From positions 186,001-250,000 of IMG/VR virus record IMGVR_UViG_3300027759_004177: 64,000 nucleotides of DNA; one strand, written 5' to 3'. This DNA is from a virus. Position 1 is the stretch's first letter. The number at the start of each line of letters is the position of its first letter. A model generated the notes under the pieces. It was not told the DNA's origin, did not search any database, and saw nothing but the letters and a program-made list of their open reading frames with translations. Made by a program: the position numbers and the translations under genes. Below, one piece after another: positions 4,113 to 34,847 of the stretch.

Positions 4113-5058
4113 TTTTTTGACCAATTGGTAACCAGGTGTTTCTCAAACGTTCTATGTGTTGATTAAATCCTGCGGTGGTTGCTTCGTCTGGGTTGGAAAA
4201 AATAAAATTTTCATTGTTAAATCTTTTTACTTCGTCAGTTTCTAATGCCCGGCTAAACTTTGTTTGATACCAAGCCACAATCTCAGGTGCTGTATCCGGC
4301 GGCAACATCAGTGCCCATGCTGCAAAAATATCAATACCCTTTCCATTGATCTTCAATGTTTCCACTGCCGGTAACTTGGCCAATCTTTTTTCTCCTGTGA
4401 TAGCAATAATTTTTACTTTGCCTGCTTCTACCAATGGGCGGGCAACACTGATTGGCATGATGCCAAACTCAATGTTGGATTCTGACGCCACTCCAGTTAC
4501 TGCCTGTAGCGGTCCTTGAAAGTTTACATGGCCGACTAAATTTTTATTTGCGCCACTGTTGAGCATAATATATTCAAATGCTAGGCGATGTACTGGACTA
4601 CCCACTGCAACATTAACTGGTTTTCCAGGACTTTTTATATATGATAAAAATTCAACAGGTGTATTTACACGACTACCGGGGTGTGCCACTATCGCTAATG
4701 GACTTTTTGCCATGCCCATCACATTGGTAAAACTGTTGTATTCCCATCGTTTTAGATCTTTTTGGAAGATATCGTTACCTACGTAGGTTGCAAAATAGCT
4801 GGGAACACTGATGGTGTATCCATCAGGTGCAGCTTCATACAATGCATTGCTGGCCAACACAGTATCTGCACCAGGTTTATGTTCTATCACGTATTGAAAG
4901 GTTGGATGATTTTTCTGTACTTGTGTGGCCAACAATCGAAACTGAACTTCGTTGCCACTGCCGGGAGCGAATCCAATTATTACTCTCACAGGTCTGGTAG
5001 GTTCCCATGCCCAGGCCATGAGAGGAGCCATAAGCAAAACAAACAATAATTTTTTCAT
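4105..5058 (-). CDS. Bug/TctC-family periplasmic substrate-binding protein
   Basis: 317 aa. It has a Sec signal peptide with AWA before the predicted cleavage at about residue 17. The mature protein follows the Bug (Bordetella uptake gene)/TctC pattern: PVRVIIGFAPGSGNEV near the N terminus, a HKPGA segment around residues 60-64 and DGYTI. These receptors capture carboxylates in the periplasm for tripartite tricarboxylate transporters. No TctA/TctB membrane partner is encoded here, so a phage-made receptor would have to use host permeases or act in signalling or exclusion (inference). The start is supported by GGAG 10 nt upstream. The gene follows the amidotransferase and diiron protein on the same strand. 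Confidence 0.9.
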   Translation of the reverse strand: MKKLLFVLLMAPLMAWAWEPTRPVRVIIGFAPGSGNEVQFRLLATQVQKNHPTFQYVIEHKPGADTVLASNALYEAAPDGYTISVPSYFATYVGNDIFQKDLKRWEYNSFTNVMGMAKSPLAIVAHPGSRVNTPVEFLSYIKSPGKPVNVAVGSPVHRLAFEYIMLNSGANKNLVGHVNFQGPLQAVTGVASESNIEFGIMPISVARPLVEAGKVKIIAITGEKRLAKLPAVETLKINGKGIDIFAAWALMLPPDTAPEIVAWYQTKFSRALETDEVKRFNNENFIFSNPDEATTAGFNQHIERLRNTWLPIGQKIN

Positions 5059-5080
5059 TTTTTCTCCGACTAATTGATTT

Positions 5081-5629
5081 TTACAACAAAAACAAATTTG
5101 ATATTTCAGTTGGTAACCAAGGTGTGTTCATACGTTCTGGATGCCAAACTACTCCTGCAATACGTTGATCAATCCAGGCTTCGCAGTGGCCATTGTTATC
5201 ATACACCAGTCCGGTTGCAGAAGAGTGTAACTGAGTAATAGCCTGAGTATGATACGAATTTACTGTGTGTTCTTGTCCAAAATATTCAACAGCGTGTTCT
5301 GTGTCCATGTGTCCTTCACATGCCTCAACCTGTCCGCCCAGTGCATCTGTAAGCAGAAATGCACCGTGACAAATTCCCAAGATTGGTTTCTGTTGTTTCA
5401 TCACAGCAGTGGCCAATTTAAATTCAACAGTTCGTCTGATTGCACTATCGTCGCCGCCGGTGATAATCAAACAGTCGTGACCGTCGGCTAATTGTTCAAA
5501 ATCTTGATCGAGTCTATTGGGAATAAAAGAAAGCGTGTGATTTTTTAAATAACGATACCAACCGTGTTCTATGCTATCGTATGCCCTACCTTTGTGATAC
5601 AGAACTCTTTGTGTAAGAGCTATCTTCAA
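5081..5629 (-). CDS. Class I glutamine amidotransferase-like hydrolase (peptidase C26/PuuD-like)
   Basis: 182 aa when started at TTG 5629, one base after the upstream stop codon. A longer upstream reading would overlap the diiron gene by 65 bp and adds a non-homologous tail, so the TTG is preferred. The triad is complete: nucleophile C87 in GICHG, and H163/E165 in HPER. ITGGDDSAIRR matches the oxyanion region. Stand-alone GATases of this kind hydrolyse gamma-glutamyl bonds or supply ammonia to a partner synthetase. No synthetase is adjacent, though asparagine-synthetase-like PP-loop proteins lie 1.3 kb away. Cytoplasmic. Confidence 0.82.
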   Translation of the reverse strand: MKIALTQRVLYHKGRAYDSIEHGWYRYLKNHTLSFIPNRLDQDFEQLADGHDCLIITGGDDSAIRRTVEFKLATAVMKQQKPILGICHGAFLLTDALGGQVEACEGHMDTEHAVEYFGQEHTVNSYHTQAITQLHSSATGLVYDNNGHCEAWIDQRIAGVVWHPERMNTPWLPTEISNLFLL

Positions 5630-5630
5630 A

Positions 5631-6341
5631 TTACCAACCGTAGGCTTCTGCTGCCAATTCCCGAGCACCAGGACTGTCGCAAGTATTACCGACAATAATG
5701 TCGTATAATTCTTTACGCATTTTGGAGGCCATGGTCAATGCACGTTCAGCAACTTCTGGGTTTTCGTCTTGCAAGCGTTCTAAACGAAGTGCACCAATGT
5801 TGGCATGGAATGCTTCATCTTTGCCAATGCGATTGTATTTTTCAGCAACAAAAGAATCATAGGCACCAATTTCACTCATTGTTAACCAGCTGGTACTGGC
5901 ACGACCTTCGGCAATTATTTGATAAACAGCCAAGGCCACTTCGTCTTGGGCAGTTTCGTACGATTTCATTGTGGCAGCACCTTTGTCGTTGGCTTTGCGA
6001 CTAAATTCACGATCTAAATATTCTTGAGTGTTGACTTCTGCACCGGTAATGTGCTCTAACACTTCCTTGACCAAACGGAAGTGTGTCGCTTCATCTTGAG
6101 CTTGTTTGGCCAACAGCAACATTTCTTCAGCAGGAGCTGAAGTTGGAAGATTGGCAATTGCTTCAGCGACACCGACCATGTTCATGTATTCATTGGCTAA
6201 ACGACCTTGGAAATGCAACAGGTATTCTTCTTTTGTGCGTGCCGGATCGTTGAACCAATGGCGAATGTTCATCATGCTGGCTTCAAATAATGGTTTGTTT
6301 TCTTCTTGTATTTTTAGTACTAGTTCTTTGCCGGTCAGCAT
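5631..6341 (-). CDS. Ferritin-like diiron carboxylate protein
   Basis: 236 aa, all helical. Two ExxH pairs (E84-H87 in DEATH, E176-H179 in DEAFH) plus E51 and E145 give the six-ligand pattern of a four-helix-bundle diiron oxidase or oxygenase. The arrangement resembles PaaA/miaE/ferritin-like oxygenases more than storage ferritins. The reaction cannot be assigned; hydroxylation of a small molecule or modified nucleoside is possible. It is preceded on the minus strand by an ATAAATA element and a GGAG site, and is directly followed by the amidotransferase start, so the two are co-expressed. Confidence 0.75.
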   Translation of the reverse strand: MLTGKELVLKIQEENKPLFEASMMNIRHWFNDPARTKEEYLLHFQGRLANEYMNMVGVAEAIANLPTSAPAEEMLLLAKQAQDEATHFRLVKEVLEHITGAEVNTQEYLDREFSRKANDKGAATMKSYETAQDEVALAVYQIIAEGRASTSWLTMSEIGAYDSFVAEKYNRIGKDEAFHANIGALRLERLQDENPEVAERALTMASKMRKELYDIIVGNTCDSPGARELAAEAYGW

Positions 6342-19285: not shown

Positions 19286-19526
19286 GTTGTAGAATTTCCA
19301 TCACCAATTTTTCTTTTAATTGCGTGAGTCTAAATTCCAATTGATGGCATGCTTCGGCTACTTCGGCATCTGTGCCCCAACCACGCTGTGTATTTAGATG
19401 GTATGCAAATTTTGCTACTGTGTCTTTTTCTAACTGTATATTTACAGCATCGTGCTTAGGTTTGGCTTGACAACAAAGTTCAAACTCTCGCAACAACTCA
19501 TCGGCACGTTGACGCCAATCCGTCAT
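19272..19526 (-). CDS. Hypothetical small protein
   Basis: 84 aa, mostly helical (many Glu, Leu, Lys), two adjacent Cys (FELCCQAKP). No family recognised. It overlaps the methyltransferase by 14 bp and the UvsY-like gene by 4 bp (ATGA), so it is translationally coupled within the recombination/radical SAM operon. Confidence 0.6.
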   Translation of the reverse strand: MTDWRQRADELLREFELCCQAKPKHDAVNIQLEKDTVAKFAYHLNTQRGWGTDAEVAEACHQLEFRLTQLKEKLVMEILQHGSI

Positions 19527-19978
19527 ACCACAATGTCTTCCATTCCGGCTGTGCGTAGTCTGACCACATGTCCCAACATGAAGTTCTTTGACTCAATGCC
19601 TTTCATGACGCCCAGCCAGCGATTGCGTAACAAGGCTACTTCATTGATAATAGTTTCCATGTCGACCACTTCATCCTCGGCTTCGGCATACTTTTCGGCA
19701 TCTCTTGATGTTAATGCTCTAGCATAGGCTTCTAAATACTTTTTATAATGACGTTGGCGGATTTTACGTAATTGTATGTTAAGAAATTCTAGCACAGCTT
19801 CAATCTCTTGCAGTTGATTAAATCTGTGTTCAGTCATGCCTGGCAAGTCGGACAACTCTTTTTCTACGCGACCACGTATTTTAATTTCTGTTTTGGCTGA
19901 CGTCATCTCGCCTTCGTAGTAGTCGATGAATTCAGGAATAACGCTTAGGTCAGCTACAATTCGATTATAAAACATCAA
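19523..19978 (-). CDS. uvsY: UvsY-like recombination mediator
   Basis: 151 aa. A highly charged helical protein with the UvsY arrangement. An N-terminal ELSDLPGMTEHRFNQL segment is followed by KKYLEAYARALTSRDAEKYAEAEDE, and then by LRNRWLGVMKGIESKNFMLG, which resembles the conserved C-terminal R-W-x3-GIE block. UvsY loads UvsX onto gp32-coated ssDNA. Location supports this: uvsX lies 2.6 kb downstream on the same strand and gp32 further on. T4 UvsY is 137 aa. Identification is by pattern, not by close identity. Confidence 0.55.
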   Translation of the reverse strand: MMFYNRIVADLSVIPEFIDYYEGEMTSAKTEIKIRGRVEKELSDLPGMTEHRFNQLQEIEAVLEFLNIQLRKIRQRHYKKYLEAYARALTSRDAEKYAEAEDEVVDMETIINEVALLRNRWLGVMKGIESKNFMLGHVVRLRTAGMEDIVV

Positions 19979-21212
19979 GGACTCCGGTTAGCCAAGGAAA
20001 AGTTTCACGCCAGTTGGTGTTGCGTCTACGATCAAGTTCGTCAAGATAAGTACGCAACTTGTTGATTTCGGTGGGATTTTTTTTGGTACTAGCAATTTGT
20101 TGTCTAACACCTTGCATATACTTACGTGCTTCCTGTTGTTGCCAAGTGTCTGCAGGCATAACTTCTAGCACCTGTGCAAAGTACGGATCTAGCAGTTCGG
20201 AATCAAAGATGTCTGGGTTCATGTAAGTGGGTGTGTTTGCGGTTATCAAATGATGCCCTATTTCTCTATGTGGTCTAAATGTGTTTATGTAATTGATCAA
20301 TGCTGGCATGGTAGGCACAGCCAATGCAGTGACCACTTGGTTTATGTTCAAAGTTATCCAACGTTGATTGACCAAATATTCAAAATTCTTTTTCCATTTT
20401 TCTAAATCCAAGCCCGATCTAATATACTCTTGTTCTGGACCCCAACAATCTATACTGGCAGTCACTTCAAAACGTTTGATCTTGCGTTCAGCAACCAAAT
20501 GTTTGATACGTTCTACATGCTCTTGCAATCGTTTATTATCGATCATCAAGTTACTTACTACATTAAATTCCAAATCTTTGTTACTATGATTATACAGGAA
20601 ATCCAAACAAGTGTCAAATTGTGCTTGATAAAATGGTTCTCCGCCCAACACATGAAATCTGCGTACAGTCAAATAATTATCGTCTAGCCAGGCCCATAAC
20701 TGTTCAGTCAGCAGGGCCTTGTCTGGATGCGGCCGATATTGGTTGTCAATTACAACACCGCCCAATTCAAATCTGCCGTGTTGATCATTTTCGTGTTTGA
20801 TGCGACTGCTAAACCCATCGTGGCAATATATACATCGTAGATTACAGGTATTGTCAAAATACACTTCTACAATTCTAGGGGTGACCATGATGGCCTCAGG
20901 ATCTGTGTCTAGTTCTGGCGGTGTTAGGTCTGGTATTGCCAGGTGTAGCATACGATCACTACTACCACCCGCACGTTCTATTTTTTCACAGTAATCGCAA
21001 CCACCTGAGGGCCATGCACCCAACAACATGGTTTGCCGATCTTGTAATTTTTTAGCAGTATTATGAAACTGATCAAACGATTCAGTTGATAGCGAACTTT
21101 TTTCTACTCTATGACAACTGTTGGTAGTTCCTTCGTACAAATAGATACTGCTCCAGGTCCATTTGAGCTGGCATGCAGTCGCTGTCTGTATTGGAAAATA
21201 CTTGTGTTGCAT
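19965..21212 (-). CDS. Radical SAM protein with N-terminal SPASM-like Cys domain
   Basis: 415 aa. CxxxCxxC at C123, C127, C130 (DNTCNLRCIYC), followed by GGEPFYQ for SAM binding. N-terminal cysteines C14, C33, C72 and C75 repeat the C...C...CxxC layout seen in the other four family members here, suggesting an auxiliary Fe-S cluster before the barrel. It overlaps the UvsY-like gene by 14 bp and touches the 77-aa acidic gene at 21212. Substrate unknown; a protein or nucleic acid partner of the recombination machinery is one possibility given the genomic position. Confidence 0.87.
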   Translation of the reverse strand: MQHKYFPIQTATACQLKWTWSSIYLYEGTTNSCHRVEKSSLSTESFDQFHNTAKKLQDRQTMLLGAWPSGGCDYCEKIERAGGSSDRMLHLAIPDLTPPELDTDPEAIMVTPRIVEVYFDNTCNLRCIYCHDGFSSRIKHENDQHGRFELGGVVIDNQYRPHPDKALLTEQLWAWLDDNYLTVRRFHVLGGEPFYQAQFDTCLDFLYNHSNKDLEFNVVSNLMIDNKRLQEHVERIKHLVAERKIKRFEVTASIDCWGPEQEYIRSGLDLEKWKKNFEYLVNQRWITLNINQVVTALAVPTMPALINYINTFRPHREIGHHLITANTPTYMNPDIFDSELLDPYFAQVLEVMPADTWQQQEARKYMQGVRQQIASTKKNPTEINKLRTYLDELDRRRNTNWRETFPWLTGVLDVL

Positions 21213-21445
21213 TACCAGTTGGAATCTTCGCCTTCGTCATCATCTTGTTCGTCATCGGCGGTGTATTCTTTGAGAGCTTTTTTCAAGGTGCTGTCTGTTG
21301 TACCAAACTCTTTAAGCTCTTGATCGCCCAACATATCAACCATGACACTCATTAGGTTATCGGCACACTCTTGACGATCCTTTGCAGGAACATACTGTTT
21401 CATAATGGTATATAGTTCGCTTAAAACTTCTGTATCGATGGTCAT
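21212..21445 (-). CDS. Small acidic protein between two radical SAM genes
   Basis: 77 aa with a strongly acidic C-terminal tail (DDEQDDDEGED). The N-terminal part LSELYTIMKQYVPAKDRQECADNLMSVMVDML looks like a helical bundle and resembles small conserved proteins of marine T4-like phages (recalled, not checked). It is sandwiched by overlaps between two radical SAM genes, upstream of a GAGG site. It could be a substrate or docking partner of those enzymes, or simply a conserved phage accessory protein. Confidence 0.65.
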   Translation of the reverse strand: MTIDTEVLSELYTIMKQYVPAKDRQECADNLMSVMVDMLGDQELKEFGTTDSTLKKALKEYTADDEQDDDEGEDSNW

Positions 21446-22578
21446 ACTTTTTCCTCTTTGTTAATCCACGTTGTAAAATTTTCTGGAAATACGTCTAACA
21501 AAAGTGATCTGCGATGAGCAAATTCTGTTAGATAATGCTTTAACTTGGTTTTTTGTTCCATTGTTGATTCTACTGCTAAAGTTTCTTTGATTTCTTGGTC
21601 ATGATATTTATATTCAATTTGACATAACTGTGTCTTGGACTCAGGATCTAACACACTGGCACTTAGATATGCAGGATCGTTGCAGGGATTTAACAAATCT
21701 TTGTCAGTTGAATATTCCCGTTGAAAATCATCGAATCCATGCACAGTTAAATTACTCAACACACTACAAAATCTATAGTCAAACTGTGCGGCTATCAAAT
21801 CCAAGTTACGTCTAAACTGATCCCAGGTATTACCATGCCTGTTAAATTCGTATAATGCACCTGTGTTTTCTGCACTGACAGTAAATGTAGTGCTTTTAGG
21901 TAACTGTGACAATATCTGCGTTAATCGCTTGGTATTAACTCCTAGGCCTGTAAAAATATCAACGGATCCTGTTAGTCCTGTTACCAACTCTGTTAGTCCA
22001 TTGTATAAAAATGGCTCGCCACCGGTAATTTCTATTTGCTTGACTGTTTTAAATCTTTTTATTTCTGACAAAATAGTTTGGTAACTATCGCTGGCTTTTA
22101 TAGCAGGTTGTCCTAGTTGTAACACAATTCTATCGTTGGCTGTGATTTGATATCTTGGCTCATCAAAATATGCACCGTGATCTTTAACATCACGTAACCA
22201 AGCAGTACTGTACTGTTTACAGCAATAACTACAGGTTAGATTGCAATCGCTACCAACATTGATGTGTAACACTTGAGGACCAGCATAGATATCTGTGTGT
22301 GTTCTTTCTCCAGAATTCATCAGAGTACGTCGGCTGGGCAATCCACGACGTTCAGCTGACCAACAAGTATCTTCGCAACTTGCCACAGGCTCGTTGTTTA
22401 ACATTGCTTGTCGTTCTTGTATTAGTACGGGCGTGTTAAACAACTGTCCTGGGTTATTTCTAAGCCAGGACAAGTCAATCTTGGTAGCTGTAGCAGCACA
22501 GCACGAATTCATAGTTCTTCGTTCAGGCTCTACAGTTAACCACCAAAATTTTTGCGAGCAATAATTACTCTGCGACAT
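21442..22578 (-). CDS. Radical SAM protein with N-terminal Cys domain
   Basis: 378 aa from ATG 22578; a longer reading extends into uvsX and was not used. CxxxCxxC at C112, C116 and C119 with an extra Cys at 120. ITGGEPFLYNG provides the GGE motif. The N-terminal domain has many cysteines (C7, C26, C27, C68, C72). The C-terminal part is less conserved. The start overlaps the 3' end of uvsX by 14 bp, so translation of the enzyme is coupled to UvsX. One of five paralogues in this window. Confidence 0.86.
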   Translation of the reverse strand: MSQSNYCSQKFWWLTVEPERRTMNSCCAATATKIDLSWLRNNPGQLFNTPVLIQERQAMLNNEPVASCEDTCWSAERRGLPSRRTLMNSGERTHTDIYAGPQVLHINVGSDCNLTCSYCCKQYSTAWLRDVKDHGAYFDEPRYQITANDRIVLQLGQPAIKASDSYQTILSEIKRFKTVKQIEITGGEPFLYNGLTELVTGLTGSVDIFTGLGVNTKRLTQILSQLPKSTTFTVSAENTGALYEFNRHGNTWDQFRRNLDLIAAQFDYRFCSVLSNLTVHGFDDFQREYSTDKDLLNPCNDPAYLSASVLDPESKTQLCQIEYKYHDQEIKETLAVESTMEQKTKLKHYLTEFAHRRSLLLDVFPENFTTWINKEEKV

Positions 22579-23686
22579 CAACCTCTTTTTTAGACTTCTT
22601 TGGCTTGTCTTCAACCACTGCGTCTAATTCAGCTTCTAGTTCTTCAATGTCCACTGACTTCTGATGTGGATTGGCAACAAAATCTACCATGGCCTTGTCC
22701 AAGCATGAATCTTCGTTGCGTTCCCATGCCTTGCGAAACTTCTTGATAATTTCACCTGTAGCCAGTGTATACACCAGGCTGTTGCCTTCTTTCTTCAGCA
22801 AGTCTTTGCCTTCAAATAGGTCAACCAAACCCGAGTAAGGATTCATACCTTCTTCGTACGGAATCTTGACCTGAACAGATTCAAATGGTTTGGCATAGCG
22901 TGTTTTCATGATCTTGCAAGCGGCACGGATGCCTTTTACTTCTGAAATCTTGTTGCCATCCTCATCTTCTTTGAGTTTTAACTTACGCATAGCTACAACA
23001 ATAGAGCTTGCATAGATAAAACCTTGTCCTCCTGATATTTTGTCGTCCGGATCAAACATGTCCTGTGACGCATAAGTGTGTGCTGTTGTTACTAGGCCAA
23101 TATTCAAGCTACCAAACATGTTTACGCAATTACGTACCAGGGCGGCCAGTGCCTTGGGCTTACGACCCATGTCACCTTTCATGTCCCCTGCTTCGAATTG
23201 ATTTACATCCGTGGGGGTAAGTAGCATACCCAACGAATCTACTACAAATAGTACTTTGGGACGTTGATCTTCTGGTAGTGTTTTGTATTCTTTGACAAAC
23301 TCCGAGATCATCTTGCCCACATCATCGATCATGGCCATGTTTAGTTTGAGTAACTTGTCCTCACTGGTATCTACATTTAATGCATGTAGCCATTTCTCGT
23401 CGAGTGCGTTTTCGCTATCAACCAGGATCACATAAATGCCTTGCTTTTGTGCATTGGCTACCAAGTTGCCCGAACAAATAAAACTTTTACCTGCGCCAGA
23501 CTCGCCAGCAAACACAGTAACTTTACCTAGTGGAACACCTTTGTTAAAGTCTCCTGAAATTAGATAGTTGAGAGCATAGTTATTTGTACTGATCCAATCT
23601 GTGGGATCGGTAAAGCCAACGCTGATACCGTCAATACTTTTGGTAATGCTCTTGCGAAATTTTGATACGTCAAATGGTTTAGCCAT
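22565..23686 (-). CDS. uvsX: UvsX RecA-like recombinase
   Basis: 373 aa. Walker A GESGAGKS at residues 61-68; VFAGESGAGKSFICSGN and the Walker B-like LFVVDSLGML fit UvsX/RecA. It polymerises on ssDNA and catalyses strand invasion for recombination-dependent replication and repair. The acidic C terminus (IEELEAELDAVVEDK) resembles the regulatory tail of UvsX. ATG follows AAGGAAA. It is coupled upstream to a radical SAM gene (8-bp overlap) and downstream to another (14 bp), an unusual arrangement. Length slightly shorter than T4 UvsX (391). Confidence 0.93.
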   Translation of the reverse strand: MAKPFDVSKFRKSITKSIDGISVGFTDPTDWISTNNYALNYLISGDFNKGVPLGKVTVFAGESGAGKSFICSGNLVANAQKQGIYVILVDSENALDEKWLHALNVDTSEDKLLKLNMAMIDDVGKMISEFVKEYKTLPEDQRPKVLFVVDSLGMLLTPTDVNQFEAGDMKGDMGRKPKALAALVRNCVNMFGSLNIGLVTTAHTYASQDMFDPDDKISGGQGFIYASSIVVAMRKLKLKEDEDGNKISEVKGIRAACKIMKTRYAKPFESVQVKIPYEEGMNPYSGLVDLFEGKDLLKKEGNSLVYTLATGEIIKKFRKAWERNEDSCLDKAMVDFVANPHQKSVDIEELEAELDAVVEDKPKKSKKEVDVAE

Positions 23687-24833
23687 GATAGTTTTCCTTG
23701 ATGTTATATAAATCTTTAAATATTTTACTGCTGTCTACTTTACGTCTTTGATCCAATGTATATAGCTCTGCCATTGAACCTAAGAAATCTTTTTCGAATG
23801 GTTGCTCAATGTAATGTAGCATGTTACGGTAACTATCTTCTAATAGATAGCCCGGGCTTTCATTGATCCTAGTTTCCAAAGTGCTCTTAACTGATTGTAA
23901 CACAGAGTCTGGCAAATGTCTAATGTTTAGGTATTCTGGCTCTAATAGTGCACCAATCACAAATGCATTATTATGGAATCCCTGTGCTTTTAGGAGATCC
24001 ACACAACCAAATATGCTTTGGTAGTTTAATAGGAAGTGTAGCATATTAAACGTAATTTTATGATCAAGTGAGTTTATGTGTTTTAAATTGTCTTGGAAAT
24101 CTTGCCAACGACCACCGTGTCTAACGTACTCAAACTCATCTTCCGTAGTTTCTACACTCACTGTCCAGTGTACATTACGAAACTCACATATACGCTCAAA
24201 TACTCGGGTATCTACTTTACTTAGATTTGTGTTGATACGTAAGTTTACATCAGGATCTAACAGGTCTAGCAACTCTAAGTTTTCCCGCATCAGCAGAGGC
24301 TCGCCGCCAGCTAGATAAACATGCTCAAGTTGATCGGCACGGTCAAATATATACTGTTTAAAATTGGCACGTTGTTCTTGTGTCGGTGTTTGTTGTTTGA
24401 TATCCAATTCATCTGCCCAACGGCTGCTAAACTCTGGATTACAATATACACAAGCAAAGTTACACAAGTTGGTCCAACGTACATCAATGGTTTTTAAATC
24501 AAAGTTTCCAGCACGATATGTATCCAAGCTGACATTTTTTAATTCTCGTATGTAAAACTTACGATCGCTGATAATATCAAATCCTTTTTTACCATGCTCT
24601 AAATCATAGCATGTGCGGCACGAAGGTACCGCAACATCTGATACAATTTTATTTTGTATCAGTACATTGGTGTTGCCATGTACTACTTGTTCTATTGGAG
24701 TGTCTTTGATATTGCCAATAGTACCAGCACTACGAATACAATTTTTGACTGTACCATCAAATCCGTTGTACATGAGGCCAGTCCAAGGTATAGGACAAAA
24801 ATATGGATTAGTTAATACGTCCTTGGGTGTCAT
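23679..24833 (-). CDS. Radical SAM protein with N-terminal SPASM-like Cys domain
   Basis: 384 aa. CxxxCxxC at C124, C128 and C131 (NLCNFACVYC), GGEPLLM for SAM binding. N-terminal cysteines C13, C32, C72 and C75 match the recurring layout with FCPIPW at the start and a DG turn. It overlaps uvsX by 8 bp and the SDR gene by 4 bp (ATGA). The best preserved of the five copies in terms of N-terminal SPASM-like signature. Confidence 0.88.
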   Translation of the reverse strand: MTPKDVLTNPYFCPIPWTGLMYNGFDGTVKNCIRSAGTIGNIKDTPIEQVVHGNTNVLIQNKIVSDVAVPSCRTCYDLEHGKKGFDIISDRKFYIRELKNVSLDTYRAGNFDLKTIDVRWTNLCNFACVYCNPEFSSRWADELDIKQQTPTQEQRANFKQYIFDRADQLEHVYLAGGEPLLMRENLELLDLLDPDVNLRINTNLSKVDTRVFERICEFRNVHWTVSVETTEDEFEYVRHGGRWQDFQDNLKHINSLDHKITFNMLHFLLNYQSIFGCVDLLKAQGFHNNAFVIGALLEPEYLNIRHLPDSVLQSVKSTLETRINESPGYLLEDSYRNMLHYIEQPFEKDFLGSMAELYTLDQRRKVDSSKIFKDLYNIKENYHG

Positions 24834-25321
24834 GTCAATGAGATGTCCGGTATAATAAATCCGTTAGCTTCTGCTGTAGAAAAAAGTTTAACTAGTGTAC
24901 GTGCCCATTCTGCTGGATTGATTACTTTACCTGGACGCACCAAAGTTATATTTGGACCGGCGGCATTCATATAACGCAATTGATGTACTGCTTGTTCTAG
25001 TGCAACCTTTTGCAATCGATATTGATCCATGCCTTCTATAACACTAACTGGTTGCTGTGCCATCATTGTGCTAATAACAATAATATGCTTTTGCGTATTA
25101 TTCCAGCGACGATACACTTCAAACAACAATTCAGTTTGTGCAAAACCTGCTTGTGCATTGTTAATAAACACATCGCACGGCTCAATCAAGCTGGCAATCT
25201 TGGGAGTGTTGCGTATGTTGTTACCTTCGCGAGTGCTCAAACCAACAATCTCGTTGCCATAGTATGCTTCGGCCAGAGCTTGACCAATGCCTGCTGTGTG
25301 TCCTGTGATTGCTATTTTCAT
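24830..25321 (-). CDS. Short-chain dehydrogenase/reductase (paralogue 1)
   Basis: 163 aa. TGHTAGIG at residues 6-13 (TGxxxGIG nucleotide loop), NNAQAGF (NNAG-like) and a YxxxK active site in DQYRLQK. Classical SDRs are about 250 aa, so this is a compact version. It uses NAD(P)H to oxidise or reduce an alcohol or ketone. It is coupled by ATGA to two radical SAM genes, so it probably belongs to the same pathway. A second phage SDR with the same start MKIAITGHT lies at 34290 on the other strand. Confidence 0.8.
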   Translation of the reverse strand: MKIAITGHTAGIGQALAEAYYGNEIVGLSTREGNNIRNTPKIASLIEPCDVFINNAQAGFAQTELLFEVYRRWNNTQKHIIVISTMMAQQPVSVIEGMDQYRLQKVALEQAVHQLRYMNAAGPNITLVRPGKVINPAEWARTLVKLFSTAEANGFIIPDISLT

Positions 25322-26202
25322 TCGATACCCCGTAATTGTTTTTGTTGTTGTATATATGCTTGTACTTGTTCTTGATTCTTATTATTGACATCTAATTCTT
25401 TGGGCTCTTTTAAATAAGCATAGCCATGATCGATTCCGTGTTCCTCGGCAAACTTTTTTATATTGGGCAAATCGTGCAAGTTCAACACACTAACTGTGGT
25501 CCACAAGTTTAGTTTCACAGGCATGGTTTTATATCGCATTAAGTTTTGATAAAATGTCGCCCACTTGATAGGCCAACGCACATATTCAAACACTGAACCG
25601 ATACCATCACAACTCGCTGTGACCGTGACTTCTATGCCACGGCCGGCAATCTCTGTTAGCTCTTCTAACACCACGTTACAATTGGTATTAAGTCTCAGTG
25701 TACGCAAGTTCGAAGGCAAGTTGGCCAATAGTCTTCGATAGTTTTTGCTATAACTGGGTTCGCCGCCGTTGATATCCAAATGCACAATACGATCTTGTGG
25801 CAAATCCCAAAAACGATTACTGTTATCTATTATAGTAAAAGTGCCACTGGTCAACGCACCTATCCTGGTGCTACATTCAGGACTGCAAGTCAGACAAGCG
25901 GCATTGCACACATTGTCTAATACTCCGCCTACTTGTAAATAATCCCTCTGCGTTTCTAGGGCATCCACAGCAATGGCGTGTATTCTTATACTGCTAGGCG
26001 ACTCTTGCTCGACTTCTTGACAACGTCGACATTCTACCGGCCACTCACCTTGTTCAAACTGTTCACGTATTTTACGCAACCAGCGACTGTTATTCATTTC
26101 TTCAAGGCTATCAAACTGTGCAGGATTGACCATGTGACCACAGCGGCTTACTGTGCCATTGGGGTTAAAGCGAACAAAGTGATCTAGTCTAGGACATTGC
26201 AT
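25318..26202 (-). CDS. Radical SAM protein, short version
   Basis: 294 aa, the shortest of the five. CxxxCxxC at C99, C103, C106; NGGEPSYSK supplies the GGE motif. N-terminal C3, C21, C58 and C61 keep the C...C...CxxC layout, with a further Cys at 110 after the CxxxCxxC motif. The C terminus stops soon after the barrel, in a Gln-rich tail. It overlaps the SDR by 4 bp and the sulfotransferase-like gene by 19 bp. Confidence 0.85.
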   Translation of the reverse strand: MQCPRLDHFVRFNPNGTVSRCGHMVNPAQFDSLEEMNNSRWLRKIREQFEQGEWPVECRRCQEVEQESPSSIRIHAIAVDALETQRDYLQVGGVLDNVCNAACLTCSPECSTRIGALTSGTFTIIDNSNRFWDLPQDRIVHLDINGGEPSYSKNYRRLLANLPSNLRTLRLNTNCNVVLEELTEIAGRGIEVTVTASCDGIGSVFEYVRWPIKWATFYQNLMRYKTMPVKLNLWTTVSVLNLHDLPNIKKFAEEHGIDHGYAYLKEPKELDVNNKNQEQVQAYIQQQKQLRGIE

Positions 26203-26795
26203 ATTTGAATGCTCCGATCAATAACTTCATCGTACAAAGCATGATGATTGTCTTGAACGAATCTAACGATTTGTTTGAGTGGAACTGTTTGTCCCATAAA
26301 ATCTTCGTAAAGTATTTTATCTAATTGTAGATAATATTTTAATTTTTGATTGGTGCCGAAATAGTCTATCAGCGTTCGATCTCGTGCCAGCACATTCCAT
26401 GTGTGTTCTGTGGCCGTGTGTAATTCTTCTATGGGTCTAAAGTACATCCAAGCATCGGTAAACTTTTGCAGATTGACGATCCAATGGAACTGCAAACTAA
26501 AATGACTGTTTAAAAACAAATACTGGTCGATCATGGTCAGTGCAGTTGCACGATCAAGGTGTGGATTTTGTCTTAGGTATGTTTGCACTCCGCTGACATA
26601 GCGTTCAAAAGGTTCACGTAAAAATATTTCAACTGTACGCAACTCCCGCATTTCAAAGTAATTGAGTTTTCTAGGGTTGGCAGCAAGTAAACTACTGCTA
26701 CCATTTTTAAAAATAGGATAGACATAGCGATCGGTCCCTACTTCAAGGATCTCGCATTGGTCTGGAAAGAGTATGGGGTCTAGATAAGACAGCAT
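26184..26795 (-). CDS. Sulfotransferase-like protein
   Basis: 203 aa from ATG 26795, just after the hairpin; an upstream start would read through it. VYPIFKNGSSSLL (residues 25-37) has the form of the 5'-PAPS binding loop, and FLREPFERYVSGV (58-70) that of the 3'-phosphate binding segment of carbohydrate sulfotransferases. It should transfer sulfate from PAPS to a sugar or other hydroxyl. No PAPS synthesis gene is in the window. Weak start context and partial overlap with the radical SAM gene indicate coupled translation. Confidence 0.72.
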   Translation of the reverse strand: MLSYLDPILFPDQCEILEVGTDRYVYPIFKNGSSSLLAANPRKLNYFEMRELRTVEIFLREPFERYVSGVQTYLRQNPHLDRATALTMIDQYLFLNSHFSLQFHWIVNLQKFTDAWMYFRPIEELHTATEHTWNVLARDRTLIDYFGTNQKLKYYLQLDKILYEDFMGQTVPLKQIVRFVQDNHHALYDEVIDRSIQICNVLD

Positions 26796-26802
26796 AGGAA
26801 AT

Positions 26803-26823
26803 GTGGGGGACCGTCTCCCCCAC
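26803..26823 (-). terminator. Hairpin after gp32 (attenuator or terminator)
   Basis: Minus strand GTGGGGGA pairs over 8 bp with TCCCCCAC around a 5-nt loop, starting 15 bp after the gp32 stop. No T-run follows, so it may attenuate read-through into the sulfotransferase-like gene or protect gp32 mRNA rather than terminate fully. Confidence 0.5.
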
Positions 26824-26837
26824 TGACACAAGCAATA

Positions 26838-27812
26838 TTACTGTTTCTGACGGTTACGAATCATTGCCAAAATGTCTTCAGCACGTTGGCTGGATGGTTT
26901 GGCTTCTGCAGCCGGAGTTGCTATCGGTGCAGTTGGAGCAGGTACATCATCTTCTTCCGCTGGTTCTGCCGCCACAGCTGGTGCTGGTGCACTTTCTGCG
27001 GCTGGTGCAACGTTAGGAACATCCAAGCCATATGGCTTGTAGTAAGCACCCCAACGATCTGGATCGTATGGTTGGCCATCTACTGATGCTTCAAACATTT
27101 CTTTGAGAACCTTGAGCTCTACTTCGCTGGGTTTCTTAGGCAAGAAGTCTGACAAGTTGAACAGGCCATGCTCATCAATTGCGGCTTGTTCTTCTGCTGT
27201 CAATGCTGACTCTTTGCGGCTCCACTTAGAAGTTGAGTAGTCTGCGTAGCCACCTTTGCTTGTTTTAACGATTTGGAAATCCAAACCACGTTGCAAGTCT
27301 GTTGGCAACTCTTCCATTTCTGGATCCATCAATGCAGCCTTGATGATGTTAAAAATCTGTGGGCTGATTGTAAAGCGACGGATTGGGTTGGCTGGAACCT
27401 TGTCGTCACTCAGTGCGTTTTCACGTACAAAGCCTTGGAACACATAAGATTTTTTCTTCCAGTACTTGCGACCCATTTCCTCTAGGCTAGGATCTTTGAA
27501 CCACGGACGAACTTCTGCCAAGATTGGGCAAGCTTCGCCGTACATTTCCATACATGGAACTTGTACAACCACAGGCTTACTATCTGCTTGACCTTTGACA
27601 CCAGCAAATGGTAGTCGGATCATTGCACGTTCAGCCCAAAAGAAGCTGTTCTTGGTGTTGCCGTCTGGGAGGAATCTAATGCGTGTTGTGGAACCTTCTG
27701 CAATGTTCCAGTGTGGATAGATAGCGTTGTCGCCACCTGATTGTCTGTTACCGCCTTTACCGCCTTCTGATGCTTGGAGCTTTGCTCTAATTTCTGCTAA
27801 TGTTGTAGCCAT
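26838..27812 (-). CDS. 32: Single-stranded DNA-binding protein gp32
   Basis: 324 aa. Core follows T4 gp32: IYPHWNIAEGSTTRIRFLPDG, the FFWAERAMIRLPF segment, and the zinc ribbon cysteines C87 and C95 with YWKKKSYVFQGFV after them. The C terminus is acidic/Pro-Ala-rich (AEPAEEDDVP) and ends in an amphipathic helix, as in gp32 where it contacts replication partners. Coats ssDNA for replication and UvsX recombination. AAGGAA precedes ATG; a sigma-70-like promoter lies at 27877. Confidence 0.93.
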   Translation of the reverse strand: MATTLAEIRAKLQASEGGKGGNRQSGGDNAIYPHWNIAEGSTTRIRFLPDGNTKNSFFWAERAMIRLPFAGVKGQADSKPVVVQVPCMEMYGEACPILAEVRPWFKDPSLEEMGRKYWKKKSYVFQGFVRENALSDDKVPANPIRRFTISPQIFNIIKAALMDPEMEELPTDLQRGLDFQIVKTSKGGYADYSTSKWSRKESALTAEEQAAIDEHGLFNLSDFLPKKPSEVELKVLKEMFEASVDGQPYDPDRWGAYYKPYGLDVPNVAPAAESAPAPAVAAEPAEEDDVPAPTAPIATPAAEAKPSSQRAEDILAMIRNRQKQ

Positions 27813-27876: not shown

Positions 27877-27906
27877 AGTATATGCTAATATATTTAGTCC
27901 TGTCAA
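27877..27906 (-). promoter_or_regulatory. Sigma-70-like promoter of gp32
   Basis: Minus strand TTGACA (27901-27906), 18-bp spacer, TATACT (27877-27882). The leader to the gp32 ATG (27812) is about 60 nt and holds an AAGGAA site. Confidence 0.6.
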
Positions 27907-34289: not shown

Positions 34290-34847
34290 ATGAAAATAGC
34301 CATTACCGGACATACCATGGGAATTGGAAAAGCCTTGGCAGAAGTATATCAACAACACGGACATGCTGTAGTTGGGTTTAGTCGATCCACAGGTCACGAC
34401 ATTTCGACTATTGATGGTCGCACACGTATTATTACAGAATCAGCCGATTGTGATTTATTTTTCAACAATGCTCATGCCGACTTTTCACAATGTGATTTAT
34501 TATTTGAGTTATGGATGTCTTGGAAAAATCAAAAAAAATATATTGTAAACATTTCATCTGCTCACAGCGTAAAATGGGTATATTTTTTAAAAGATCAGGT
34601 CAGTGATATCAAGTATTGTAGCGTTAAAAAAGCACTAGAGGAATCTGCAGAATTTTTGTGGAACCAATTGGATTGGCCCGCAGTATCAATCGTTTCTCCG
34701 TGTCGTACAGATACTCCCAGAGTAGCACATAGAGATTGGAGTAACAAAGTTGATCCGACGGAATTTGCTAACCTGGTATATACCACGTTGATTCAGAATA
34801 ATTTTAGAGTGCAGAGATTAAGCCTGGCCAACAGACCCATCGATTAG
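34290..34847 (+). CDS. Short-chain dehydrogenase/reductase (paralogue 2)
   Basis: 185 aa. MKIAITGHTMGIGKALAEVY holds TGxxxGIG, followed by FFNNAHADF (NNAH in place of NNAG) and YCSVKK (YxxxK). Same opening as the SDR at 24830, so a duplicated family inside one genome. Start has AAAGGA nearby. It is alone on the plus strand with the HNH gene between head/packaging genes. Substrate unknown; the strand and position differ from the radical SAM operon copy, so it may act later in infection. Confidence 0.8.
   Translation: MKIAITGHTMGIGKALAEVYQQHGHAVVGFSRSTGHDISTIDGRTRIITESADCDLFFNNAHADFSQCDLLFELWMSWKNQKKYIVNISSAHSVKWVYFLKDQVSDIKYCSVKKALEESAEFLWNQLDWPAVSIVSPCRTDTPRVAHRDWSNKVDPTEFANLVYTTLIQNNFRVQRLSLANRPID

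Follow-up and report, generated by a model that had tools for sequence, protein, structure and literature searches.

Why should a phage keep four radical SAM (rSAM) genes interlocked with its recombination genes? The carrier, a 357-kb virus belonging to a group that has been seen almost solely in environmental DNA, is a large T4-related jumbo phage; a comparison of 24 kb of DNA from the region with GenBank phages gave no match. A preliminary description of the window – the whole 64,000-nucleotide stretch analysed here – proposed either that the enzymes act on DNA during recombination or replication, or that the phage needs both sets of genes at the same time. Comparison across relatives suggests a portable biosynthetic pathway that operates in parallel with DNA replication and is not itself part of recombination.

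A minus-strand run of ten genes

The locus is a run of ten overlapping or near-adjacent genes in the order gp32, SulT (sulfotransferase-like), rSAM4, SDR, rSAM3, uvsX, rSAM2, acid77, rSAM1 and uvsY, with overlaps of 1–19 bp; this gene content, orientation, placement and overlap, as first described, were all confirmed, apart from two start codons that have moved. All coordinates given here are window positions on the minus strand. The start of rSAM2 has been revised to ATG 22578, so that its overlap with uvsX becomes 14 bp, while SulT (26184..26795) most likely begins at ATG 26795, the start site of most of its orthologues; its open frame extends to TTG 26831.

First in the run stands the gene for a gp32-type single-stranded-DNA-binding protein (26838..27812; phrog_1192, 1.3e-64). 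Upstream of it, a promoter-like site (27877..27906; 11/12) is a candidate promoter of the run, and a perfect sigma70-like site lies inside rSAM1, upstream of uvsY (20589..20617), both being predicted by consensus scan only. With SulT starting at ATG 26795, a 42-bp gap follows gp32 and contains a hairpin of 8 pairs just 3′ of that gene (26803..26823; z = −1.6 for the window, reaching −5.2 in relatives). As hairpins occur here in phages with and without the movable genes described below, this one belongs to the gp32 end.

A fixed core and a movable block

The fixed core is gp32–uvsX–acid77–uvsY, and many relatives carry it with nothing inserted. It includes the UvsX recombinase (22565..23686; phrog_97, 1.4e-65; Pfam RecA, 1.4e-13), which is 60–69% identical to jumbo-phage RecA-like proteins, and the UvsY recombination mediator (19523..19978; phrog_231, 5.9e-15). 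The small acidic 77-residue protein acid77 (21212..21445), followed by phmmer across L001–L080, is likewise a core member and not the rSAM partner for which it might be taken: it is kept in loci without any rSAM gene (L002, L005, L014, L016, L022 and others).

Between gp32 and uvsX lies a block, SulT–rSAM4–[2OG dioxygenase]–SDR–rSAM3, whose dioxygenase is optional and absent from the window. Its presence is nearly all-or-none: among 156 non-redundant contigs – a set partly selected using block proteins – it is whole at gp32–uvsX in 93, absent in 57 and partial in six. With the complete block at this place in 93 of the 156, the gene order is no chance alignment. Sought in relatives, as had been proposed at the outset, the same order is conserved in those that carry the block, and both order and place are constant across diverged uvsX lineages.

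The block does not follow the core by descent. On the uvsX tree, its eight presences need eight changes, against a mean of 7.7 when shuffled, so that they scatter as if at random, and the sisters L001 and L002 differ in block presence. Pairwise distances correlate at 0.81 between uvsX and gp32, at 0.48 between uvsX and rSAM3 and at 0.09 between uvsX and rSAM4, this last near-zero value arising partly because loci were chosen by rSAM4 similarity. Within the block, the window and L089 share 91–93% identity in rSAM3, rSAM4 and SulT vs 55% in SDR. These comparisons show that the block is gained and lost without change of place, and that its genes are mosaic one by one. In 50,697 GenBank phage records, SulT, rSAM4 and rSAM3 had no detectable relative.

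The enzymes

All four rSAM genes – rSAM1 (19965..21212), rSAM2 (21442..22578), rSAM3 (23679..24833) and the short rSAM4 (25318..26202) – are intact and of the twitch type, and each finds its best match in the NCBIfam family NF033640 (N_Twi_rSAM), rSAM1 (242 bits) and rSAM3 (228) exceeding its curated 170-bit threshold and rSAM2 (158) and rSAM4 (154) falling just below it. The SAM-cluster motif CxxxCxxC is found in all four translations and is invariant in the rSAM3 and rSAM4 alignments. Each translation also has four N-terminal auxiliary-cluster cysteines, invariant at positions 13, 32, 72 and 75 of the rSAM3 alignment and 3, 21, 58 and 61 of the rSAM4 alignment. Ratios of dN/dS of 0.05–0.13, in close pairs where dS was computable, indicate purifying selection. 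A viperin (pVip) identity was rejected: scores reached at most 36 bits against 180 curated in NCBIfam, and the PADLOC pVip matches were weak, as expected of cross-matches within the superfamily.

The SDR gene (24830..25321) encodes a short, Rossmann-type dehydrogenase, assigned from weak SDR-family matches and alignment. SulT has no match in Pfam, PHROG or NCBIfam, nor did its profile find one among PDB sequences. Its orthologues align on motifs resembling those of PAPS sulfotransferases (KNGSSS and RxPxxR, the latter as R-E/D-P-x-x-R) without falling into a recognised family, and its AlphaFold model has sulfotransferases among its top Foldseek matches, none of them significant (a sulfotransferase ranks first, at E 0.49); by motif and this non-significant fold rank, it is best described as putatively sulfotransferase-like.

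The dioxygenase, found in relatives only, retains the Fe(II)/2-oxoglutarate residues of the HxD...H...R pattern (H76, D78, H151 and R163), invariant in 33 sequences. Its model (pLDDT 94.5), of the double-stranded beta-helix fold, matches AviO1, P3H and AspH with a Foldseek probability of 1.00; the fold matches comprise the antibiotic-sugar oxygenases AviO1, KanJ and EvdO1 as well as AspH and proline 3-hydroxylase, with AlkB also among them. A comparison of its profile with PDB sequences returned one weak, meaningless match.

Genomic surroundings

The company that rSAM genes keep is skewed towards DNA metabolism. Such genes are abutted by 20 of 52 rSAM sites (4.6 expected) and, once the uvsX cluster is removed, replication or recombination genes still adjoin 10 of 42 (2.3 expected); the neighbours are uvsX/uvsY/gp32, gp46/gp47, gp41, pol, RNaseH and UvsW. 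In marine contigs, the SulT–rSAM4 pair occurs either next to primase/gp41 or in the company of sugar-nucleotide genes, in the latter case without a recombination gene in sight; in L309, the pair's neighbours are a nucleotidyl transferase, an FkbM methyltransferase, an MptE-like protein and an RraA-like aldolase.

In the window, the stretch downstream of uvsY encodes a methyltransferase and a cytidylyltransferase/mannose-6-P-isomerase cupin. Two genes guessed to be glycosyltransferases had no Pfam, PHROG or NCBIfam match. Elsewhere in the genome, an array of five rSAM genes adjoins SGNH-type proteins and a carbamoyltransferase.

What the cassette might do

Our preferred reading, in a judgement that could fall either way, is of a swappable, translationally coupled accessory biosynthetic cassette inside the replication/recombination operon, probably for sugar or glycan tailoring and expressed with the replication genes. 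Homologous recombination within the conserved core genes on either side would exchange the cassettes, and their location would give early or middle co-expression together with translational coupling. The suggestion that the phage needs both sets of genes at once, if read as co-expression, fits here. The enzymes may act one after another, with radical C–H chemistry followed by oxidation, an SDR redox step and finally sulfo transfer. Their substrate would be a sugar, a nucleotide-sugar or another small metabolite destined for a glycan of the host surface or virion, the outcome being changed recognition by, or resistance to, the host. rSAM2, between uvsX and acid77, and rSAM1 are further single inserts beyond the unit.

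For a sugar we count the dioxygenase fold, the neighbours in L309, the genes downstream of uvsY and those adjoining the five-gene array, as well as the pelagimyophage rSAM cassettes that lie in a glycosyltransferase-rich host-recognition region (PMC7029224). Against it, SDR, 2OG and rSAM enzymes are equally common in peptide and nucleotide pathways, the nearest solved rSAM structure is the peptide maturase SkfB (for the rSAM4 alignment; one of two for rSAM3), and the substrates of AspH and P3H are peptides or amino acids. The enrichment beside DNA genes also exceeds what a glycan pathway needs, and a single pathway does not account for one-gene inserts, of which rSAM1, lying between acid77 and uvsY, is an example.

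That enrichment speaks for DNA hypermodification, in which a modified base, or the sugar attached to it, would be made or further decorated by the cassette – an unlikely reading, if one that deserves weighing. The position among replication genes would follow from enzymes acting during replication, as with beta-gt and gene 42 by uvsX in T4. In T4, uvsX adjoins both of these DNA-modification genes, so that the initial contrast with T4, whose recombination genes were said not to sit among rSAM enzymes, was incomplete in leaving them out. The AlkB fold match points the same way, as do FolE, QueD, a QueE-like protein and a phosphoribosyltransferase encoded by the genome. Yet no homologue forming hmdU or hmdC was found, as the sole PF00303 protein, scoring above the equivalog cut-offs, is a genuine thymidylate synthase, and for a 7-deazaguanine route, FolE and a QueD-type PTPS are joined by a QueE-like protein that falls below curated cut-offs, with no QueC match in the carrier genome (G000) and no TGT/DpdA (PF01702) – negatives that would miss base chemistries outside the known ones. 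Nor do the Que-type genes track the block, being present with or without it at uvsX (G020, G001), and marine homologues have sugar-nucleotide surroundings. The specific version in which paired N-terminal-twitch rSAMs, the 2OG oxygenase, SDR and the sulfotransferase-like enzyme make an undescribed, possibly sulfated base during replication in uncultivated jumbo phages, from a cassette swapped at gp32–uvsX, is doubtful.

Similarly doubtful is modification of a phage or host protein or peptide, with the rSAMs installing crosslinks, epimers or thioethers in the manner of RiPP maturases. The proximity to SkfB, weak matches to many RiPP maturase models and the dioxygenase's resemblance to AspH and proline hydroxylase would fit, but superfamily membership alone predicts weak matches to every rSAM model, and no conserved small precursor is co-inherited with the unit among ORFs of at least 60 residues. 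acid77 was rejected as a precursor, since it occurs without rSAM genes.

Improbably, the neighbourhood may be a by-product of core junctions that are insertion-prone and accept any accessory gene. The junctions do also hold a GIY-YIG-like gene, a B12-rSAM, 2OG-like and unknown genes, with 31 inserts of other kinds at gp32–uvsX; rSAM genes are nonetheless far more concentrated beside DNA genes than other accessory genes (37% vs 7%), and the unit's order and place stay fixed across diverged uvsX lineages. A family of ~300 residues and unknown nature at gp32–uvsX (L016, L023, L029 and L077) had no link to the block.

That the rSAMs are working parts of recombination, modifying UvsX, gp32 or recombining DNA, is highly improbable despite the physical interlocking and overlaps, and despite an rSAM1 paralogue (genome position 276377) that adjoins gp46, one gene from gp47: cultured jumbo phages and many IMG/VR relatives have the core alone, the block is scattered on the uvsX tree, the relative G001 has 13 rSAM matches but none from gp32 to uvsY, and the SulT–rSAM4 pair also occurs away from recombination genes.

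Relation to known systems

The swappable cassette resembles several known arrangements. T4 beta-gt and gene 42 are likewise modification enzymes next to uvsX, but here no hydroxymethylase homologue was found and the enzyme classes are others. Jumbo phages of the CBB/GAP32/121Q type (Mimasvirus and kin) share the core order terL-x-gp32-uvsX-uvsY, but without inserts, as in cultured CBB, 2.275.O and Phosso. SkfB and other SPASM/twitch RiPP maturases are similar in the radical SAM core, whereas the window's rSAMs have their auxiliary cysteines N-terminal to it and no precursor peptide was found. The NF033640 family has the same four-cysteine N-terminal motif and CxxxCxxC, yet carries no stated function, and we found no report of the gp32–uvsX unit for it.

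rSAM genes have been mentioned in aquatic phages (PMC7029224, PMC9301287) and counted in marine T4-like genomes (PMC5332604), and Vibrio phage K566 carries a short run with three annotated rSAM genes. The T4-type hyperplastic loci and rSAM cassettes of pelagimyophages and TARA T4-like genomes (PMC7029224, PMC5332604) likewise show many rSAM genes and cassettes varying between close relatives, but those reports either locate them in the host-recognition region or give counts alone, whereas here a unit of four to five genes lies inside the recombination operon. A literature search found no description of SulT–rSAM4–[2OG]–SDR–rSAM3, and the system appears, as first suspected, to be undescribed. 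The unit is testable and has a fixed address, and it gives a physical context to rSAMs that are numerous in these phages without an assigned function: they gather near genes of replication and recombination, and phages trade them as cassettes. Should the pathway turn out to make a glycan or a DNA modification, this would add a new layer of phage–host chemistry.

The run of genes and its enzymes

The interlocking of four radical SAM (rSAM) genes with uvsX, uvsY and gp32, as put forward in the preliminary description, is real: all ten genes were found on the minus strand, from 27812 to 19523, in the order gp32, SulT (sulfotransferase-like), rSAM4, SDR, rSAM3, uvsX, rSAM2, acid77 (encoding a small acidic protein of 77 aa), rSAM1 and uvsY, with raw overlaps of 1–19 bp between gene pairs. 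Correction of the SulT start to the ATG at 26795 leaves a 42-bp gap directly 3′ of gp32, within which lies a hairpin (26803–26823, minus strand). A consensus scan also picked out a candidate promoter in rSAM1, upstream of uvsY (20589–20617, minus strand; 12/12 sigma70-like match), and an SDR paralogue lies on the opposite strand (34290–34847, plus; 146 bits against the profile of the unit’s SDR).

The rSAM proteins carry four N-terminal cysteines in addition to the CxxxCxxC motif, and the 356,865-bp virus record, of which the window covers 186001–250000, holds 16 matches to NF033640 (N_Twi_rSAM, N-terminal-twitch rSAM proteins), 10 of them above the curated cut-off. The solved relatives found were only SkfB and another rSAM protein (6y1x) for rSAM3, and SkfB alone for rSAM4. 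For SulT, the resemblance to sulfotransferases is one of motif only, and the fold search was not significant; an optional further gene, present in some relatives, is an Fe/2OG dioxygenase by both motif and fold.

A conserved unit between gp32 and uvsX

Among 80 contigs retrieved on UvsX similarity alone, 26 of the 71 with a readable gp32–uvsX interval had inserts of at least 130 aa there (11 with an rSAM motif), and 16 of the 68 readable for uvsX–uvsY had inserts in that interval (12 with rSAM). Searches with proteins of the unit alone (SulT–rSAM4–[dioxygenase]–SDR–rSAM3) returned block-bearing IMG/VR contigs in which the block lay between gp32 and uvsX in every readable case. Across 156 non-redundant contigs, the unit was whole in 93 (25 including the dioxygenase), absent from 57 and partial in 6; the pool was partly chosen with unit proteins, so that the informative part is the rarity of partial sets rather than 93 as a frequency. 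The cluster is real and conserved, and apparently undescribed in the literature searched. No relatives of SulT, rSAM4 or rSAM3 were found by tblastn in 50,697 GenBank phage records, and the sole genome_contigs match, a Porticoccaceae MAG contig, is itself phage-like, with a DnaB-type helicase at its start.

Some relatives have other genes in the neighbouring intervals. The uvsX–acid77 junction holds a gene for a B12-binding-type rSAM protein in L010 (2645–4183) and, in L025 (11118–11825), a gene identified by eye as that of a GIY-YIG-like endonuclease. In L001, the place taken by rSAM1 in the window, from acid77 to uvsY, is filled by a 2OG-oxygenase-like gene (5423–6097; HxD...H by eye).

A folding energy below −10 after gp32 was seen in 55/58 block-free and 107/133 block-bearing loci, the hairpins differing in sequence among phages of both kinds. 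Since block-free relatives also have them, the hairpin belongs to the end of gp32, with the block placed after it.

Proposed exchange of the unit

On a 71-row UvsX tree, the 8 unit-bearing rows require 8 changes, against 7.7 with shuffled labels, and the sisters L001 and L002 differ in unit presence. Agreement of tree distances with uvsX was 0.81 for gp32, 0.74 for SulT, 0.48 for rSAM3 and 0.09 for rSAM4, values subject to range restriction through the selection of loci. In one locus (L089), the SDR shows 55% identity against 91–93% for its unit neighbours, and is thus replaceable alone. The dN/dS of the rSAMs is 0.05–0.13 (close pairs with computable dS), and the genes are therefore maintained. 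Together, tree scatter, distance disagreement, SDR replacement and dN/dS suggest that the unit may be exchanged through homologous recombination in gp32 and uvsX.

Neighbours of rSAM genes elsewhere

In six large genomes, 20 of 52 rSAM runs abut replication or recombination genes (4.6 expected) and 3 abut structural genes (8.8 expected); at gene level, 28/76 rSAMs lie beside replication or recombination genes, against 29/413 other accessory genes. With the uvsX cluster left out, the count is 10/42 against 2.3 expected (p = 5e-5, which is optimistic, since the genomes share ancestry and most were picked for carrying the unit). The safer argument is the number of distinct junctions with rSAM, which include gp55/gp47, gp47/gp46, gp46/x, pol, RNaseH, UvsW and gp41.

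In the present genome, an rSAM1 paralogue at genome position 276377 (L084:8378–9667) adjoins gp46, one gene from gp47 (both encode the recombination nuclease); in G023, rSAMs occur at gp55/gp47, at gp47/gp46 and after gp46. Five N_Twi rSAM genes stand in tandem at genome 318202–324692, in an array similar to those of G020, G021 and G023; beside it lie SGNH-type genes, genes for possible glycosyltransferases and one for a NodU-type carbamoyltransferase. Vibrio phage K566 (OZ196521), in whose record three genes lying close together are annotated as rSAM, is a possible experimental model.

Possible functions

The best-supported reading is that the unit forms a portable pathway of tailoring enzymes, expressed together with the replication operon. 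Its substrate would be a sugar or glycan, as suggested by neighbourhood: the SGNH-type proteins and carbamoyltransferase around the rSAM array; the cytidylyltransferase/cupin and methyltransferase genes downstream of uvsY in the window; the marine contig L309, where a SulT–rSAM4 pair lies among a nucleotidyl transferase, an FkbM methyltransferase, an MptE-like protein and an RraA-like aldolase; and pelagimyophages, whose rSAM cassettes occur in a glycosyltransferase-rich setting (PMC7029224). L309, classed as viral, also encodes a RuBisCO large-chain domain protein (4533–5717; PF00016, 2e-36) beside rSAM and sugar-nucleotide genes.

The main rival, favoured by the position of the rSAM genes beside replication and recombination genes, is hypermodification of DNA by the cassette enzymes. 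No hydroxymethylase homologue was found, however, and neither QueC nor TGT/DpdA was found in this genome, despite the presence of FolE, QueD and a QueE-like protein. These last are clustered outside the window (genome 353274–356840; L253:8274–11840) as QueE-like, MazG-like (by eye), QueD-type, HGPRT/XPRT-like phosphoribosyltransferase and FolE genes, a candidate 7-deazaguanine pathway that might act at the nucleotide level.

Direct action of the enzymes in recombination, proposed earlier from their coupling to uvsX, is not supported: G001, a relative, has 13 rSAM matches, none of them between gp32 and uvsY, and SulT–rSAM4 pairs sit elsewhere, after primase–gp41 in the marine contig L306 or among the sugar-nucleotide genes of L309. 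A peptide pathway around acid77 is likewise not supported; this gene keeps its position between uvsX and uvsY even in loci without any rSAM.

Comparison with cultured jumbo phages

The UvsX of the window is 60–69% identical to those of cultured jumbo phages such as CBB, GAP32 and Vibrio phage 2.275.O. In CBB and its kin, terL and one more gene are followed by gp32–uvsX–uvsY without inserted enzymes, unlike the arrangement in the window, where the rSAM and other enzyme genes are set into this same core.
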